Shown here: positions 6,825 to 45,169 of the stretch, one piece after another
How the letters are laid out: every line of letters begins with the position of its first letter
Numbering within the stretch: the stretch's first letter is position 1
Assembly (NCBI RefSeq): GCF_001861355.1
Contig: NZ_MASN01000030.1
Coordinates: 372,001 to 436,000, forward strand
Direction: 5' to 3'
Origin: Natrialba sp. SSL1
GTDB taxonomy: Archaea; Halobacteriota; Halobacteria; Halobacteriales; Natrialbaceae
Length of the DNA stretch: 64,000 bases
Translations under genes and position numbers: made by a program
Notes under the pieces: model-generated
Seen by the model: only the letters and a program-made list of their open reading frames with translations
The model's database searches: none
What the model was told of the DNA's origin: nothing

Positions 6825-7013
6825 GGGTGCGAGAATCAAGCTACCTGAAGACGGTCCCACTCGCTACATTTGTGGGCCACGTCTTCCGTTGTTCGAGTCT
6901 CCGAGGATGCCGTCGGCTCACGAGTTTGTTCATCGGATCAGCTTGCTGCGCCGAGTAGTTGCTCACTCCGTTCGCGACAACGCCGAAGAACGACCGGGTG
7001 CGAGAATCGAACC
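6825..7013 (-). repeat. two truncated copies of the tRNA-His 3' end
   Basis: Bases 6994-7013 repeat exactly the 20 bases at 7107-7126 inside tRNA-His (part of the T arm plus the acceptor 3' strand, same orientation). A shorter 13-base copy is at 6825-6837. Both lie downstream of the tRNA 3' end. The rest of 6754-7104 has no gene. Between tRNA and first copy are 93 bases ending (plus strand) in 'gtcagaaag', closely like the spacer at tRNA-Pro. They could be integration-site scars or a conserved trailer structure. Confidence 0.75.
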
Positions 7014-7104
7014 ACGCCGAGACGTGCTCGCTGGCGCTGCGCGCGACTCGTCTGGTTCGATCTCGGTCGGACTTTCGACTCCTCCATGAAGTCGTCGTCA
7101 GAAA

Positions 7105-7177
7105 GTCCGGGTGCGAGAATCGAACCCGCGTCTCAGCCTCCACAAGGCTGAAGGATAACCACTACCCCAACCCGGAC
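7105..7177 (-). tRNA. tRNA-His (GTG)
   Basis: The minus-strand sequence folds into a full cloverleaf. The acceptor stem has eight pairs (GTCCGGGT with ACCCGGAC), so the extra G at position -1, paired with C73, is encoded, the hallmark of tRNA-His. The anticodon loop is TTGTGGA with anticodon GTG between stems AGCCT... and ...AGGCT. The T arm is CGGGTTCGATTCTCG. CCA is not encoded. Truncated 3' copies follow at 6994 and 6825. Confidence 0.95.
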
Positions 7178-19978: not shown

Positions 19979-21322
19979 ATGTCAAACCCACCCCTCACAG
20001 CACTCCGGCAATCGATCACGACCCTCTCTGGACCGCTTATGCGGGCTGGACGGCACCTCCTGTCGCCGTTCACCCGCGGTCTCGAACACCGTCGCAGACT
20101 CGCGGACATCGACGTCAAGATCGTCGTCTCGGGAACCCGCGGCAAATCGGGTACCACCGAGCGACTGTACGACGTCCTTCGGGCCCGCGAGTACGACGCC
20201 TACGCGAAAGTCACGGGTAACCATCCCCTGTCGCTGTACGACGGGGACGAAAACGCTATCGATCGCGGCGAGCGCGTCACGCTCTACGAGAACGTCCGCG
20301 AGCTTCGCAAGTACGCCGACGCCGAGGCGTTGGTCCTCGAGAATCAGGGGATCACGGACTACACGACGCGAATGATGAACGAGGCGTTCGGCCAACCCGA
20401 TGTCCTCGTCATCACGAACATCCGGCAGGATCACCGCGACACGCTCGGCAAGAGTCGCGAGACGATCGCCCGAGCGTTCGCGCGGGCTGCGCCACCCGGC
20501 ACCCACGTGGTAAACGGTGAGCAAGACCCGGAGCTTCGCTCGTACCTAGAGCGTGAACTACAGGAGATCGGCGCGACCGTGACGCACGTCGACGTTCCCG
20601 ACTGCCACCAGCACGTCCCGGGAGCCGAGTGCGTCTACGCCATCGACTGCGTCCTCGAGACGATCGGCGAACCGACCATGTCCGACGAGCGTCGAGCGTC
20701 GATGCTCGACGCCCTCGCCGTCGACTGGGTGCACGCCCTCGGCGGCCGCATCTACAACGCGGCCGACGTCAACGACGTCGAGAGTACCGAAATGGTCCGA
20801 CAGTCGCTGGTCGAGGACGGCGAACAGATTCAGCCGTTCGTCTACCTGCGCCGCGACCGTCGCGCCCGGACGGCGTCGTTCCACGAGTATCTCGAGGAAC
20901 TATTCCAGCAGGATGCACTCGAGCAGGCCCGTGTTGCGGGCAGCCACACGGACCTGTTCGCAGCAAAGGCGTCGTTTCCCGTAATCTGTCACGACGAGCA
21001 GACTGAGGCTGCGATCGATGTCCTCAACGAGATGCTCGAAGAGGACTGGCCGGTGCTGGTGATGGGGAATACCGTCGCCGAGTTCATGCGCGATCTCGAC
21101 GACGAGATTGAGCGCCACGCAACCGATCCGGCGGCCGTGTGCGAGCGCGAACTCGAGTCCGAGTCCGAACGTGAGGCTGCGAGCGACGGCACTGCCAGGT
21201 GCGAGCGCGAACGCGATCAACAGTCGAACGCGCCAGCAGACGCCGCGATGACCGCCGACGGTCGGGAAGACACACAGTCCGGGCATGAGCCCGAACCCGA
21301 GCAGCGTGCCCCGGCTCAATAG
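19979..21322 (+). CDS. pgsB: poly-gamma-glutamate synthase PgsB/CapB (Mur-ligase fold amide ligase)
   Basis: A 447-residue ATP-dependent ligase that adds glutamate through gamma-amide bonds. The P-loop GTRGKSGTT is at 52-60. VLVITNIRQDHRDTLG at about 141-156 matches the conserved TN-R-DH segment of PgsB, and ENQGITDY precedes it. The last 60 residues are a Glu/Arg/Ser-rich low-complexity tail beyond the catalytic core. It lies 117 bases after pgsC. No pgsA/capA homolog is nearby. Confidence 0.9.
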   Translation: MSNPPLTALRQSITTLSGPLMRAGRHLLSPFTRGLEHRRRLADIDVKIVVSGTRGKSGTTERLYDVLRAREYDAYAKVTGNHPLSLYDGDENAIDRGERVTLYENVRELRKYADAEALVLENQGITDYTTRMMNEAFGQPDVLVITNIRQDHRDTLGKSRETIARAFARAAPPGTHVVNGEQDPELRSYLERELQEIGATVTHVDVPDCHQHVPGAECVYAIDCVLETIGEPTMSDERRASMLDALAVDWVHALGGRIYNAADVNDVESTEMVRQSLVEDGEQIQPFVYLRRDRRARTASFHEYLEELFQQDALEQARVAGSHTDLFAAKASFPVICHDEQTEAAIDVLNEMLEEDWPVLVMGNTVAEFMRDLDDEIERHATDPAAVCERELESESEREAASDGTARCERERDQQSNAPADAAMTADGREDTQSGHEPEPEQRAPAQ

Positions 21323-21422
21323 CCGCTGGCCGCTGGCGGGGAACACGGCGACAGAACAGAGGTATCGAGCGGTAGAAAACCGCAGGGAGACGGGCATCTC
21401 CCATGCTCACAGAAACAAACCA

Positions 21423-22517
21423 ATGACAGACGACACAAACGAAACCGGACGAATCGACACCCCGAAACTAACCCGCCGATCGGCGTTGACCGCCGCAGTC
21501 GGAACACCGGCGTTGCTCGGCCTCGCCGTCGGCTCGTACGAGGCAGCGACGCGAGTCAGCGACGGCGACGAGTTCGAGACCGGAATCCTCTGTCCGCTCG
21601 CTGATAACCAACCGTCGCTCGAGGGAGAGAAAACCGCAATCTCGGCCGATCCACGGCTGCTCTCGGCCCACGGGCTCTCGGCGGGACAACAGGTCCGGCT
21701 CGTCCGAAACGACAACGACGACGAGTTCGCCATCTACACGATCGTCGAGGAGCGCCCGGAGAATCCGTCCGACATCATCAGAGGCGGGACCGCCGCACGC
21801 AAGCGGCTCGATCTCGCGTCGGTCGAGCCGACTGATCCCGGCAACGACGACTGTCCGGAGCTCCTCCAAGCCTATACTGGCGACGATGAGGAGATCGACG
21901 TCACGGTTTCGACGACGATTCCAAATCCGGACCTCTCCGAAGACGAAGCGCGCGAACAGGGCGAGTTGATCGAACGGCTGGACGACCGGGGGTCCGACCT
22001 CCTCTTTCTCGCTCCCCACGGTGGAGCCGTCCAGCCAAAGACCGACCAGCAGGCCGAACACGCCGGCGAGCTTGCCGAGGCAACGTGCTGGCGGACGAAA
22101 GGGTGGGGCCCGAACGGAGTCAACGCCTTCCACCGATGGCACGTCCCGACGAGCGAACTCTCGCCGTCATCCTACCCCGAACTCGAGACGATCGCCGACG
22201 AGGAGTTCGAGCTCGCCGTCGACTTCAGCGGCGTCTGTGAGACGGGGATCGTCGTCGGCGGGACGGCTGACCGGGCACGCCGCGAAGCCGTGCGCGATTC
22301 GATCAACGACGCGTTGCCAACCTGTTCGGTGACGGCGACGCTTGCCGATGACGAGAGCGGAACCAACCAGGAACTGCTCAGCAATCGACTCGCTGCGGAA
22401 ACCATCTACCTCGCACAGAGCTACGACGCTCGACGAGCCTACTGGGAGGAGATTTCGCTCGGCGTCGCCGCTGGACTCTCCGACGACGTCGTGTTGATGC
22501 AGCGACATAGCTGCTGA
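21423..22517 (+). CDS. Tat-exported poly-gamma-glutamate hydrolase-family protein (paralog 1)
   Basis: A 364-residue protein of the PghP-like family (PF05908, zinc-dependent, carboxypeptidase-like fold). The ATG at 21423 begins a Tat signal (KLTRRSALTAAVG). The frame upstream to 21285 only overlaps pgsB. The core motif LAPHGG is at about 196-201, followed by AVQPKT; other members usually have a glutamate where Q204 sits, so catalysis may be altered. C-terminal NRLAAETIYLAQS is family-like. It could cut, release or bind exported PGA outside the cell. Confidence 0.82.
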   Translation: MTDDTNETGRIDTPKLTRRSALTAAVGTPALLGLAVGSYEAATRVSDGDEFETGILCPLADNQPSLEGEKTAISADPRLLSAHGLSAGQQVRLVRNDNDDEFAIYTIVEERPENPSDIIRGGTAARKRLDLASVEPTDPGNDDCPELLQAYTGDDEEIDVTVSTTIPNPDLSEDEAREQGELIERLDDRGSDLLFLAPHGGAVQPKTDQQAEHAGELAEATCWRTKGWGPNGVNAFHRWHVPTSELSPSSYPELETIADEEFELAVDFSGVCETGIVVGGTADRARREAVRDSINDALPTCSVTATLADDESGTNQELLSNRLAAETIYLAQSYDARRAYWEEISLGVAAGLSDDVVLMQRHSC

Positions 22518-22691: not shown

Positions 22692-23828
22692 ATGTGCAAG
22701 AAGCGCCCCGCTACGAACCAGCATTCAAAGACGAATTCGGAGCACAACTATCGCCGCCGCCAACTGCTTCGAACCGGAATCGCGGCAACTGCACTCAGCG
22801 GGTCCGGATTCGGTTCCCGAGCACTGGCTGCCGACTCGGATCCGGCGACGAAAACAGGGACCGGAACGAAGACGACTGCTATCACGACCAAACGAACGAC
22901 CATGACCACTCCACTGAGCTGTAACGGCGAAACGACCTACTGGGACCGAACCGTCGAGGAGGTCGACGACGAATGGACGACCCGCGCTGCAACTGATCGT
23001 TACTGCTCGCTCCCGTGTGAGCTCCTCGACTCGAGTACACTCGAGATCGGCCAGCAGATTCGGTTGTTTCACGACGCTGGGGGCGGCTTTGCGAACGCCA
23101 TCTACACCATTGCGTCGGACCACGACAGCGAACACCTCTGGCTAACCGACCACGGTCTCGATCGCATCGGTGCCGGAGATGGCGACACCCTGACAGTTGG
23201 CCAGCTTGCGACCCATCCAAACTACGAGACGCGACAGAGTGCGCGGCTCAACGACGAGTACGCGGAGTATCTCGTTGGCGACGATGACGATGTCGATGGT
23301 AATGACGATACCGCCGCCACCGACGTGCTCGCACTCGCCCCCCACGGCGGCTACGTTGAGTACGGAACCGACTGGCAGGCCAAACGCGTCGTCGACACGG
23401 CCGGCGGCCTCGCCTGGATCTGCGCGGGCTTCAACGACGGCGGCGGCGCGCTCGACCGGTGGCACGTCCACTCGACGGATATCCACCACGCCTCGTTTCC
23501 AGTCCTCAACGACATTCGCCACCGGGAGTTCGAGTGGAGCGTCGCCTTCCACGGCTACACGAGCGACGCCATCCTCGTCGGCGGTACCGCAAGCGAAGAC
23601 GACCGGGCACTCGTCGCCACTGCACTCGAGGAGGCCCTACCCGAGACGCCGGTCGAACTCGCGAGTAGTGACGCGACCAGCTACGCCGGTGCAGCACCCG
23701 AGAACGTGCTCAACGAGGTCGGAACGATTGGGCAAACGATTCAGCTCGAACAGCCGATGAACGTTCGGCAAGAGCAGTGGGCAGCTGTCGCGGATGCCGT
23801 CGCGAGTGCACTCGAGGAACTGCACTGA
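22692..23828 (+). CDS. Tat-exported poly-gamma-glutamate hydrolase-family protein (paralog 2)
   Basis: A 378-residue paralog of the preceding gene. The N-terminus holds an RRR-containing Tat motif (YRRRQLLRTG at 20-29), then a Thr-rich linker. The metal-site motif LAPHGG is at 215-220 and is followed by YVEYGT with the expected glutamate E223. An acidic DDDD insertion precedes the motif (about 197-207). It lies 174 bases after paralog 1. With pgsC and pgsB it forms a synthesis-plus-turnover locus for extracellular PGA. Confidence 0.82.
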   Translation: MCKKRPATNQHSKTNSEHNYRRRQLLRTGIAATALSGSGFGSRALAADSDPATKTGTGTKTTAITTKRTTMTTPLSCNGETTYWDRTVEEVDDEWTTRAATDRYCSLPCELLDSSTLEIGQQIRLFHDAGGGFANAIYTIASDHDSEHLWLTDHGLDRIGAGDGDTLTVGQLATHPNYETRQSARLNDEYAEYLVGDDDDVDGNDDTAATDVLALAPHGGYVEYGTDWQAKRVVDTAGGLAWICAGFNDGGGALDRWHVHSTDIHHASFPVLNDIRHREFEWSVAFHGYTSDAILVGGTASEDDRALVATALEEALPETPVELASSDATSYAGAAPENVLNEVGTIGQTIQLEQPMNVRQEQWAAVADAVASALEELH

Positions 23829-23890: not shown

Positions 23891-23910
23891 GCCGAAGCCA
23901 GGAGTCGAAC
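23891..23910 (-). repeat. truncated copy of the tRNA-Asn 3' end (att-like repeat)
   Basis: These 20 bases match tRNA-Asn positions 24611-24630 at 19 of 20 positions, in the same orientation, and lie 700 bases downstream of the tRNA 3' end. The interval between the two copies holds one gene, a PD-(D/E)XK nuclease at 24065. The arrangement is that of a small element inserted at a tRNA 3' end with a duplicated target. No integrase gene is present. Bases 23829-24064 otherwise carry no gene. Confidence 0.7.
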
Positions 23911-24064
23911 AGGTGCGAGGCGGTCGGCCTCACTGTGTTCGGCCGCATGCGACTCGCGTGTTCGAGTCTGCTTGTTTCGCTGTTTTTCTTGGGTTTTGCT
24001 CGGAGCTATCGCTCCTCGCAGGTAACGATTCGAAAAACAGCGACACTGGAACGCTCTGCCGGAA

Positions 24065-24526
24065 TTATGGCCTGAGTACTGCGAGTTGTTTGTCGAAGAG
24101 ATACTCTTTTGCCCAGTTGATCCCGGCGCGTTGTCCGTTCACTGGGTCTCGAAACCGAATTTCCATTTTCCCAGTTGCAGCCTCCGAGACGGGTACGAGA
24201 TACCGATTATCGTTGAGTGGGTCGTAGACCGCAAAGTACTCCGCACGACCATCGTACCCAGTCCGATCGTATCCGTCCCCTCGGCGGCGTGTGCTCACCG
24301 TCTCAAACGCGACTGTGCCCTCGCTCTTCTGATACGCTGTTTTGCACTGAATTCGGTGGAACTGACCGGCGATTTCGACAACGAGATCGTACGGTTCGTT
24401 GTCGTAGGCTGGAACGAGAACGGGAATGTCGCGGATTACGAACGCAGAACGGATGATCGCCTCGGTTGCTTGACCGCGCTTTTGCGGTTCTTTGAGTGAC
24501 TCATACCATGTCGTTCGATCAGACAT
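24065..24526 (-). CDS. PD-(D/E)XK endonuclease, PDDEXK_5 / I-Ssp6803I-like
   Basis: A 153-residue stand-alone nuclease-fold protein. Candidate active-site residues are E22, D47 (in PYDLVVE) and the Q60-x-K62 pair (IQCKTAY), the D-(x)n-(E/Q)xK arrangement of this superfamily. The layout resembles PDDEXK_5, the family of the group I intron enzyme I-Ssp6803I; this is from memory. The gene is bracketed by the tRNA-Asn 3' end and its truncated copy, which suggests a mobile or homing-type unit. A palindrome covers its start codon. No methylase or antitoxin accompanies it. Confidence 0.72.
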   Translation of the reverse strand: MSDRTTWYESLKEPQKRGQATEAIIRSAFVIRDIPVLVPAYDNEPYDLVVEIAGQFHRIQCKTAYQKSEGTVAFETVSTRRRGDGYDRTGYDGRAEYFAVYDPLNDNRYLVPVSEAATGKMEIRFRDPVNGQRAGINWAKEYLFDKQLAVLRP

Positions 24527-24546
24527 ACCGCTATTCGATGCGGTAT
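24525..24546. promoter_or_regulatory. 7-bp inverted repeat over the nuclease start codon
   Basis: ATACCGC (24525-24531) and GCGGTAT (24540-24546) form a perfect inverted repeat with an 8-base centre. The left arm covers the nuclease ATG (24524-24526 on the minus strand). A TATA-like TTTATA on the minus strand lies at about 24551-24556. It could be an autoregulatory operator or the nuclease's own recognition sequence. Confidence 0.45.
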
Positions 24547-24609
24547 ATGGTATAAACCATCAGTTAGAGAACAGTCAATATGTCAACTGGACGGTGAAAA
24601 TCGGAAAAG

Positions 24610-24715
24610 CGCCGAAGCCAGGACTCGAACCTGGGACAACCTCGTATCTGCGGCGGACAGGCAGTACCTGAGTCGCCGTAACAGCGAGGTGCTCTACCAT
24701 CTGAGCTACTTCGGC
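24610..24715 (-). tRNA. tRNA-Asn (GTT) with a 33-nt intron
   Basis: The minus strand folds as tRNA-Asn: acceptor GCCGAAG/CTTCGGC, T arm CCAGGTTCGAGTCCTGG and anticodon loop CTGTTAA after splicing. The intron is 24646-24678, between positions 37 and 38, the canonical archaeal site. The exon-intron junctions form a standard bulge-helix-bulge: 3-nt bulges TA|C and AT|A, a 4-bp helix CTGT/GCAG between them, and the intron closed by CGGCG/CGCCG. Mature length is 73 including discriminator G. The CCA-adding enzyme gene lies 97 bases away on the other strand. Confidence 0.93.
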
Positions 24716-24811
24716 TCAACTCGTGATTGGAGGGTTCATTTGATAGGGCTTTCGTTTTCGCCTCCGGTGGTTCGACACCCTTTCACGCACCGCACGAGTA
24801 GATGCGGGAAA

Positions 24812-26293
24812 ATGAGCGACGAGGATGCAGACGCCGGCGCTGATGCAGACGCCGACGCAACCGCTGGCGACCGTGATGCCGGAGACACTCGAGACGAAGA
24901 CAACGGCAACGGCAGCGGCAACGGCAACGGGGGCGCTGCCAGCGACGAGTTCGCCAACGTCGTCGCCACCGTCCGAGACCGCGTCGACCCCGACAAGGAC
25001 GAACGCGAGCGACTCCGTGCCGTCGCCAACCAACTCACCACCCGCGCCAAAGCCGCAGCGACCGAGCTATGCGACGACGCAGACGTCATCCAGGTCGGCT
25101 CCACCGCGAGAGGCACCTGGATCAGCGGCGACCGCGACATCGATGTCTTCGTTCGATTCCCACCCGAACTCGACCGGGAGACACTCGAGTCCTACGGCCT
25201 CGAGGTTGGCCACACCACCCTCCCCGAGGGCCACGAGGAGTACGCCGAACACCCCTACGTTAAGGGCACCGTCGAAGGATTCGACGTCGACGTCGTCCCC
25301 TGCTTTCGGCTCGAGTCGGCCACCGAAATCAGATCGGCCGTCGACCGAACGCCGTTCCACACGGAATACCTGCGCCAGCGCCTCGACGACGACCTCGCCG
25401 CCGACGTGCGCGTCACGAAGCAGTTCCTGAAAGGCATCGACGCCTACGGCAGCGACCTCCGAACGCGGGGGTTCAGCGGTTACCTGACCGAACTGCTCGT
25501 CTGCGAGTACGGCGGCTTTCGCCCGCTCCTCCAGGCCGCCGCGGAGTGGCAGCCGCCGGTCGAACTCGACCCCGAGGACCACGGCCGTGAAACCTTTGCC
25601 GACCCGCTCATCGTCATCGACCCTACCGACCCCGAACGCAACGTCGCCGCAGTCTGCTCCCCCGAGAACGTCGCCCGACTCCAGCACTACGCCCGCGCGT
25701 TTCTCGACGAGCCGGCACTCGAGTACGTCGAGCCAGCCGACCCCGATCCGCTGTCCGAAGCCGACCTTCGCGAGCACCTCGAGCGCCGCCAGACGACGCC
25801 GGTTGCGATCCGATTCGATGCGCCGGACCTCGTGGAAGACCAGCTCTACCCGCAGCTTCAGAAGTCGCTCGACGGAATCACACAGGGGCTCGACAATCGC
25901 GGCTTCGACGTCTTTCGCGCTGCGGCGTTCACAGACGAGACGGCCGTTGTGTTCGCCGAACTCGCCGTCGCCGAGCGTCCCGCAGTCGAGCGCCACGACG
26001 GGCCGCCAGTTCACGTGCAGGGCCACGCCGAGGGGTTCTACGACGCGTACGAGGACGATTCAGACGCCTACGGCCCGTTCATCGACGGCGACCGCTACGT
26101 CACCGAGCGCGAGCGCGAATTCACGAGCGCACGTGAGTTTCTCGAGAGTCAGCGTCTCTTCGACGTTGGCCTCGGCGCGCACGTCCAGACAGCACTCGAG
26201 TCCGACTACGAGGTGCTAGTGGGCGACGAAATTACAGTGCTACTCGAGGAGTTCGGTCGCGAGTTCAGGACGTATTTCGAGCCGCGGCCCTGA
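24812..26293 (+). CDS. cca: CCA-adding tRNA nucleotidyltransferase, archaeal class I
   Basis: A 493-residue enzyme that adds CCA to tRNA 3' ends, needed here because none of the four tRNA genes encodes CCA. The catalytic motif GSTARGTWISGDRDIDVFV is at about 96-114, with carboxylates D109 and D111. The frame is open from 24689 through the tRNA, but the ATG at 24812 is the first plausible start. A 43-residue low-complexity leader (Asp-Ala and Gly-Asn repeats) precedes the catalytic domain and is unusual in being so repetitive. Archaeal CCA and dsRNA-like domains follow. Confidence 0.93.
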   Translation: MSDEDADAGADADADATAGDRDAGDTRDEDNGNGSGNGNGGAASDEFANVVATVRDRVDPDKDERERLRAVANQLTTRAKAAATELCDDADVIQVGSTARGTWISGDRDIDVFVRFPPELDRETLESYGLEVGHTTLPEGHEEYAEHPYVKGTVEGFDVDVVPCFRLESATEIRSAVDRTPFHTEYLRQRLDDDLAADVRVTKQFLKGIDAYGSDLRTRGFSGYLTELLVCEYGGFRPLLQAAAEWQPPVELDPEDHGRETFADPLIVIDPTDPERNVAAVCSPENVARLQHYARAFLDEPALEYVEPADPDPLSEADLREHLERRQTTPVAIRFDAPDLVEDQLYPQLQKSLDGITQGLDNRGFDVFRAAAFTDETAVVFAELAVAERPAVERHDGPPVHVQGHAEGFYDAYEDDSDAYGPFIDGDRYVTEREREFTSAREFLESQRLFDVGLGAHVQTALESDYEVLVGDEITVLLEEFGREFRTYFEPRP

Positions 26294-44975: not shown

Positions 44976-44998
44976 ATGGGATCGCCCGGATTTGAACC
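44976..44998 (-). repeat. truncated copy of the tRNA-Pro 3' end
   Basis: These 23 bases repeat 45096-45118 (T-arm half, acceptor 3' strand and two trailer bases) exactly, same orientation, 97 bases downstream of the tRNA. A run ATTTTT on the minus strand follows immediately (44971-44975), as an archaeal terminator would. The spacer holds two perfect hairpins: CTGTCGC...GCGACAG and TGCGC-GAA-GCGCA. Confidence 0.85.
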
Positions 44999-45096
44999 AC
45001 GCCCGAGAACCTGCGCTTCGCGCAGAACCTCGGTCTACTCCAAACCCAGACTCGTTCCATTTGCTGTCGCTCACGAAATTGTTCGCGACAGAAAGA

Positions 45097-45169
45097 TGGG
45101 ATCGCCCGGATTTGAACCGGGGTCACGGGCACCCAAGGCCCGAAGTATACCAGGCTAACCCACGATCCC
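45097..45169 (-). tRNA. tRNA-Pro (TGG)
   Basis: Minus-strand cloverleaf: acceptor GGGATCG/CGATCCC, anticodon stem CGGGC/GCCCG with loop CTTGGGT (anticodon TGG), T arm CCCGGTTCAAATCCGGG, discriminator A at 45097, CCA not encoded. No intron. One truncated 3' copy follows at 44976. Confidence 0.95.

Follow-up and report, generated by a model that had tools for sequence, protein, structure and literature searches.

The locus considered here raises the question of whether a nuclease gene situated between an intron-bearing tRNA-Asn gene and a truncated copy of the 3' end of that gene is a minimal, nuclease-driven element targeting a tRNA gene, as the original prediction proposed. The window, by which we mean the whole stretch of 64,000 nucleotides of Natrialba sp. 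SSL1 that was analyzed, contains the following features at this site.

24611-24715, minus strand: tRNA-Asn(GTT) gene with intron (RF00005); exon 1 at 24679-24715, exon 2 at 24611-24645
24646-24678, minus strand: tRNA-Asn intron, 33 nt, at the anticodon-loop position, without counterpart in the congeners G001-G004 and G006
24549-24558, minus strand: TATA-like sequence 5' of the nuclease start, from sequence only
24065-24526, minus strand: PDDEXK_5 nuclease, 153 aa, I-Ssp6803I-like (PF11645, 2ost profile, AlphaFold model, Foldseek)
23891-24041, minus strand: tail unit, 151 bp, made up of a hairpin, an antisense T-arm, a hairpin and then the tRNA-Asn 3'-end copy
23891-23910, minus strand: truncated tRNA-Asn 3'-end copy, matching at 19/20 bases (20/21 counting the next base)
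24689-26293, plus strand: CCA tRNA nucleotidyltransferase ORF (TIGR03671, 511 bits), its real start probably lying further inside the annotated frame

The tRNA-Asn locus and its nuclease

The joint presence of an intron-bearing tRNA-Asn and an I-Ssp6803I-type nuclease, as originally described, is borne out by both profiles, the tRNA scoring 59.3 bits against the RF00005 gathering score of 29 (Rfam) and the protein 102.5 bits against the PF11645 cut-off of 26.1 (Pfam); a default ARAGORN run did not call the tRNA-Asn of the window. The exons are identical to the intronless tRNA-Asn of relatives, and the intron, whose site is in the anticodon loop, folds into a bulge-helix-bulge-like structure, the minimum-energy form of which is relaxed rather than of the strict 3-nt-bulge type. 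The identical 33-nt intron is present in the window genome (G000), in G005 and in G077, which belongs to another genus; elsewhere the intron interiors vary (L081, L083, L113). The nuclease gene starts 84 bp 3' of the tRNA-Asn, outside its intron, and the CCA gene is a fixed neighbor that adjoins tRNA-Asn on the side opposite from the nuclease in most of the family. An integrase had been said to be missing beside the nuclease, and none was found among the six neighborhood proteins scanned with Pfam. The interval has one PDDEXK_5 gene; the statement that it holds the nuclease gene only has to be corrected, as the 151-bp structured tail unit is located there too. Further along, the window carries an adjacent pair of plus-strand genes (21285-22517 and 22692-23828), each matching the poly-gamma-glutamate hydrolase family, and elsewhere in the window genome (contig C60; L010, L364) an Asp-type nuclease 3' of tRNA-Asp seems to be split, with two overlapping matches, and is probably decaying.

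I-Ssp6803I is a PD-(D/E)XK homing endonuclease encoded by a group I intron that interrupts the tRNA-fMet gene of a cyanobacterium. A profile of the nuclease matches 2ost, which we take to be I-Ssp6803I, with an E-value of 6.5e-13, and the AlphaFold model of the window nuclease (pLDDT 89.9) retrieves 2ost chains A-D as Foldseek ranks 1-4 (E 8.2e-10, TM 0.73), so that, as modeled, its nearest solved structure is I-Ssp6803I (2ost). The residues E22, D47, Q60 and K62, presumably the catalytic PD-(D/E)XK residues, are conserved in A3 (invariant or at least 90%). The dN/dS ratios of 0.06-0.34 in 10 nuclease pairs point to purifying selection acting on the nuclease, and Pfam gives PDDEXK_5 alone for the window protein, with no GIY-YIG domain. 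By sequence and predicted fold the protein is thus a PDDEXK_5 member with candidate homing activity. With I-Ssp6803I the haloarchaeal nucleases share the sequence family, the fold, a tRNA host gene and, in some relatives, an anticodon-loop intron; they differ from this bacterial group I system in being archaeal, in being associated with short archaeal tRNA introns, and in lying mostly beside the tRNA gene and not in the intron.

Nuclease genes and their tRNA genes across the class

Of 292 genomes of the class, 138 contain PF11645, and a search directed at the rest of the phylum placed 23 of 294 genomes above the cut-off, every one of them of the class, with six others below it. From a longer list, 110 class loci were taken in a nonrandom manner, comprising the best 30, the next 60 (passing over some members of the family of the window), and 20 weaker ones from other families. 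A same-strand tRNA gene lies beside or around the nuclease in 108 of these 110, the remaining two having either a tRNA on the opposite strand or none; the question of the prediction as to whether other haloarchaeal PDDEXK_5 genes adjoin tRNA genes is for the most part answered positively in this sample, the link being much closer than had been proposed, and a nuclease away from any tRNA, on which the prediction could have foundered, was seen at a single one of these loci. A random gene would be found within 0.7 kb of a tRNA by chance in about 0.7% of cases. All of the best 30 nucleases are 3' of a same-strand tRNA, and 59 of the next 60 have a same-strand ARAGORN tRNA, the sixtieth being located within a tRNA intron. 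The 20 weaker loci include 18 on the same strand, one without a tRNA (L298) and one (L286, genome G320) with an inverted arrangement, in which tRNA-Asn copies, one of them interrupted by a 31-nt intron, flank an opposite-strand nuclease. Among 52 loci of named genomes, a set that overlaps the class survey, 50 have a linked tRNA on their own strand (the nuclease being intronic in one), the exceptions being an actinobacterial locus with a divergent tRNA-Arg and a contig-end fragment. The fragment L350 was used only in the locus survey, the intron and selection statistics and the truncated-copy counts. Three viral loci were found as well, with the nuclease 34 bp from tRNA-Asn in one, inside an apparent split tRNA of a large array in another, and 2.6 kb from an array in the third.

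The linkage is specific as to the tRNA. On a tree of 141 nucleases, which like the other tree has few columns and many weak forks, the eight tRNA labels require 8 changes, the least possible being 7, as against a mean of 67.9 after shuffling of the labels (0 of 200 shuffles as low as 8) and 34 changes for the nine host families; the first tree, of 116 nucleases, gave 8 changes for the tRNA and 29 for the host family. The larger tree excludes L054, which the first tree includes in a wrong reading frame, includes L285 with its three stops as X, and has five rows without a tRNA label, while L173, L197 and L221, which have early stops, were excluded from both. As reconstructed from these sequences, the nuclease tree follows tRNA identity and not host family, an agreement that, taken alone, could also be produced by vertical descent at fixed loci. 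It has to be noted that in G142 the nuclease ORF lies within a tRNA-Lys(TTT) intron and in a Natronomonas MAG (L340) within a tRNA-Ser(TGA) intron, and that both of these group in the tree with nucleases beside the same tRNA in other genomes. The two arrangements are therefore tied together, given that the Lys and Ser clades each hold in-intron and beside-tRNA forms. Lengths of 264-265 or 382-383 aa are common among the Pro-linked nucleases, which have an extra region (L175, L176, L223, L227).

Tail units and the truncated 3'-end copy

The truncated copy at 23891-23910 was reported in the original prediction as one of two brackets around the nuclease, and it is not a chance match. Across 125 genomes of the family, the 20-mer (at most one mismatch) is almost confined to tRNA-Asn and the sequence just 3' of it, occurring once per genome at tRNA-Asn in most; some two dozen have another copy, as a rule 140-218 bp beyond the first, and the reversed 20-mer has zero matches in the same genomes. 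A copy of the gene's own 3' end within 1.8 kb downstream is found for 9 of 34 tRNA genes checked in the window genome, as compared to 0 of 34 with the reversed 20-mer.

The copy constitutes the final 20 bases of the 151-bp tail unit, which was aligned with 27 other units following tRNA-Asn in relatives. The sequence between the 20-mer copies is kept in more than 10 genera and consists of a hairpin, an antisense T-arm, a variable hairpin, and the T-arm with the acceptor 3' strand. The majority of the tRNA-Asn tail units in relatives have no nearby nuclease, and units of the same anatomy are present 3' of tRNA-Asp in relatives and, in the window genome, after the Gly-TCC, Lys, Gly-GCC, Phe, Asp, Met, Pro and Ser tRNAs. 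As the repeat is the end of a tail unit, it is not readable alone as a duplication made by the nuclease, and as such units follow many tRNA genes without a nuclease, the bracket in the window is by itself weak evidence and fails as proof of an element's borders. A truncated copy is 3' of the nuclease in just 16 of 178 loci with an upstream tRNA, a low number that counts against the explanation favored below, and between the tRNA and the nuclease in 48, with zero matches of the reversed control in either position. Compact loci with the order tRNA, nuclease and 3'-copy do exist without a tail unit, namely L352, with tRNA-Asn on a viral contig, and L241.

Covariation in the tail unit is weak (RNAalifold: change on both sides in 7 of 28 pairs, covariation term -0.66), so that the unit may have a role at the RNA level. 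No Rfam family was found for the unit in 40,005 bases at E-values up to 1. In E. coli, the tyrT repeats (rtT RNA) follow a tRNA gene as a tandem array in which every unit closes with the 3' end of the tRNA; the archaeal tail units differ from them in sequence and in following many tRNAs. Both hairpins of the unit often have GAAC...GUGAG-like loops that resemble kink-loops (e.g., L249, L258, L272, L274) and are possible L7Ae sites, judging from sequence. Two further units with own-3'-end copies are found in the window, at 44977-45096 (minus strand) after tRNA-Pro (45097-45169) and at 6991-7103 (minus strand) after tRNA-His (7104-7177; His as read by eye). In the second tail unit of G005 (L081), the first hairpin is inverted, matching the reverse complement of the window's hairpin (23979-24041) at 61 of 63 positions.

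A replaced tRNA allele, introns and the competing explanations

An empty site, for which the prediction had asked, does occur in a relative. In the window genus, the window genome and G005 have the intron and the nuclease, and G001-G004 and G006 have neither at tRNA-Asn. In G004 the tRNA-Asn runs directly into the sequence that in the window follows the truncated copy, with 93% identity both upstream (300 bp) and downstream (400 bp), and the stretch that begins with the tRNA and closes with the copy measures 825 bp in the window, as against 72 bp in G004. This pair gives no direction alone, because recombination between the 20-bp repeats could delete the interval. Across the family the nuclease is patchy within genera, being present in 25 of 112 genomes. 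Recent horizontal transfer of the Asn nuclease within the family was considered and is unsupported, its divergence following that of the adjacent CCA gene (identities to the window protein and for CCA, respectively, of, e.g., 78 vs 82, 78 vs 77 and 63 vs 76%).

A direction is provided by the genus g49. Three of its genomes (G243, G313, G280) carry tRNA-Gly(TCC) alone, with the same sequence in all three, and three others (G301, G314, G311) have a tRNA-Gly that differs from the native one at 12 of 71 positions and is followed by the nuclease. The remnant 3' of the nuclease, as read in G301 and G314, has the native acceptor end CTGGCGCA and not CCGGCGCA, and in G301 the native flank resumes after it. 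Compared with G243, G301 shows 92% identity over the 120 bp upstream and 97% over the 330 bp downstream, and just 59/71 (83%) in the tRNA-Gly itself; the tRNA-Gly genes of G301, G314 and G311 are exactly the same, yet in their flanks G301 and G314 agree at no more than 72 and 79% of positions. The native 3' remnant fixes the direction, meaning that tRNA and nuclease together entered a native tRNA gene. On these comparisons, a foreign tRNA-Gly allele and its nuclease clearly came in together.

Introns are associated with the nuclease in other lineages. All nine members of the Lys clade are found with an intron-bearing tRNA-Lys and in no other tRNA context, and an intronless tRNA-Lys(TTT) anticodon-arm pattern, which with up to 2 mismatches allowed includes some tRNA-Lys(CTT) matches, is present in 262 of 292 genomes and lacking in 9 of 9 genomes with the Lys nuclease. 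Within the family, the tRNA-Asn has an intron in 12 of 25 genomes with the nuclease versus 16 of 87 without it (within-genus permutation p 0.00035), the corresponding numbers for the 33-nt intron being 11 of 25 and 5 of 87 (p 5e-5). Against the favored explanation, 13 of the 25 Asn-linked genomes have a tRNA-Asn that lacks an intron and does not differ from the one in nuclease-free genomes, and no introns turned up in tRNA-Asp or tRNA-Pro genes next to a nuclease in the loci surveyed (G093, G094 and the nuclease contig of G103 being excluded from this survey and from that of the Pro-linked lengths). The nuclease lies between two tRNA-Asp genes in 23 loci, these being identical in 19 and different by one base in 3, with one locus that looks misregistered. 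The idea that the twin tRNA-Asp is a target duplication of the element was rejected, as 3' ends are duplicated without a nuclease too (G015, G018, G024, G025), and it is also disfavored by the identity of the twins in 19 of the 23. Protection by an intron thus does not cover the Asp, Pro and intronless Asn cases.

The explanation that we consider probable is that these are homing nucleases, each specific for one tRNA gene, which move together with a protected allele of their tRNA, the old 3' end being left behind. In this model, the nuclease would cut an unprotected allele of its own tRNA gene, following which the break would be repaired from DNA in which the nuclease adjoins a protected allele of that tRNA or occupies its intron. 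Protection would be conferred by an anticodon-loop intron (Lys, part of Asn, one Ser) or by recoding of the tRNA (Gly), the association being what is seen. The recipient would end up with the donor tRNA and the nuclease, the broken native 3' end may stay downstream as a truncated copy, and the nuclease would afterwards decay and then be lost. Cleavage, protection and repair-driven copying by the nuclease are steps that we infer, and the order of donor tRNA, nuclease and native 3' end is seen directly at the tRNA-Gly locus of g49. The element in the window would be the intron-bearing tRNA-Asn plus the nuclease, perhaps with the tail unit; the arrangement is compatible with a replacement, confounded by the tail unit and with exons the same as the native ones. 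The core of the original prediction, a nuclease-driven element that targets a tRNA gene, has good support from the linkage survey, the empty site of G004 and the tRNA-Gly of g49, the part that did not hold up being the window repeat as a bracket; beyond that proposal, the element probably includes the tRNA allele itself. The sequences suggest that such nucleases spread by cutting and replacing an essential gene. For the broader notion of tRNA-gene drives, in which every nuclease lineage is tied to a single tRNA, carries a cleavage-proof allele of it (with an intron or recoded) and replaces the resident gene, the 3' end of which stays behind, in chromosomes and viral tRNA arrays alike, we regard the chances as evenly balanced. 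If true, many archaeal tRNA introns and alleles would be footprints of past homing, and two old puzzles, the patchy gain of tRNA introns in archaea and the swapping of essential tRNA genes, would have a direct cause. The I-Ssp6803I type is extended from one cyanobacterial intron to class-wide pairs of one nuclease and one tRNA, with target sites ready for cleavage tests, and an essential RNA gene is seen replaced as a whole, with a probably selfish nuclease alongside.

Three other explanations have to be weighed. The nuclease could be a host gene of vertical descent that serves some function at its tRNA, e.g., guarding an integration hot spot against mobile elements, and was lost in many species, which would agree with the purifying selection, the constant position by CCA and tRNA-Asn, and the divergence of the Asn nuclease in parallel with CCA; we hold this to be unlikely in view of the patchiness within genera, the intron-embedded members, the homologues on viral contigs, and the tRNA-Gly allele that was replaced with displacement of the native end. 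Integrases that target tRNA genes usually leave the final 20 bp of the tRNA directly repeated, and the locus could accordingly be read as what remains of an integrase-borne element that came in at the 3' end of the tRNA, with the 20-bp repeat as its attachment site and the nuclease as leftover cargo, a reading to which the tail units lend something by resembling stacked attachment sites in their behavior. That history appears decidedly improbable, as no integrase is among the six neighborhood proteins, some nucleases sit within tRNA introns, a single nuclease lineage per tRNA spans host families, and in g49 the whole tRNA-Gly including its 5' half was replaced, unlike in 3'-end integration. 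We give hardly any credence to the proposal that the tail unit alone matters, the copy being a tRNA-tail repeat with the nuclease between by accident; the copy is indeed the 3' end of a unit, and units follow tRNA-Asn and other tRNAs without a nuclease, but the linkage in 108 of 110 loci and the tRNA-specific clades go unexplained, the linkage statistics refuting it as a full account, and compact loci lack the unit.

As regards known systems resembling homing with a protected tRNA allele, in the open-access literature searched we found no report of PD-(D/E)XK nucleases at haloarchaeal tRNA genes or of ORF-bearing archaeal tRNA introns, and nothing usable on rtT RNA/tyrT or on RNAs from the sequence 3' of haloarchaeal tRNA genes. 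As a general matter, bulge-helix-bulge introns of archaea are known to house homing genes (PMC6125680). The SegB endonuclease of phage T4, whose free-standing gene lies between tRNA genes and which targets a tRNA intergenic region (PMC2988022), is similar in being a free-standing nuclease in a tRNA region; it differs in being a GIY-YIG enzyme of phage only, and the accessible portion of that source reports no replaced tRNA allele. Similar in arrangement to the tRNA-Gly locus of g49 are the mobile endonuclease ORFs of fungal mitochondria (Allomyces atp6; Glomus atp6, atp9, cox2 and nad3; PMC3630166), which bring in a foreign gene piece while the native 3' piece stays downstream, the difference being that LAGLIDADG or GIY-YIG enzymes and protein genes are involved there, and PD-(D/E)XK nucleases and whole tRNA genes here.
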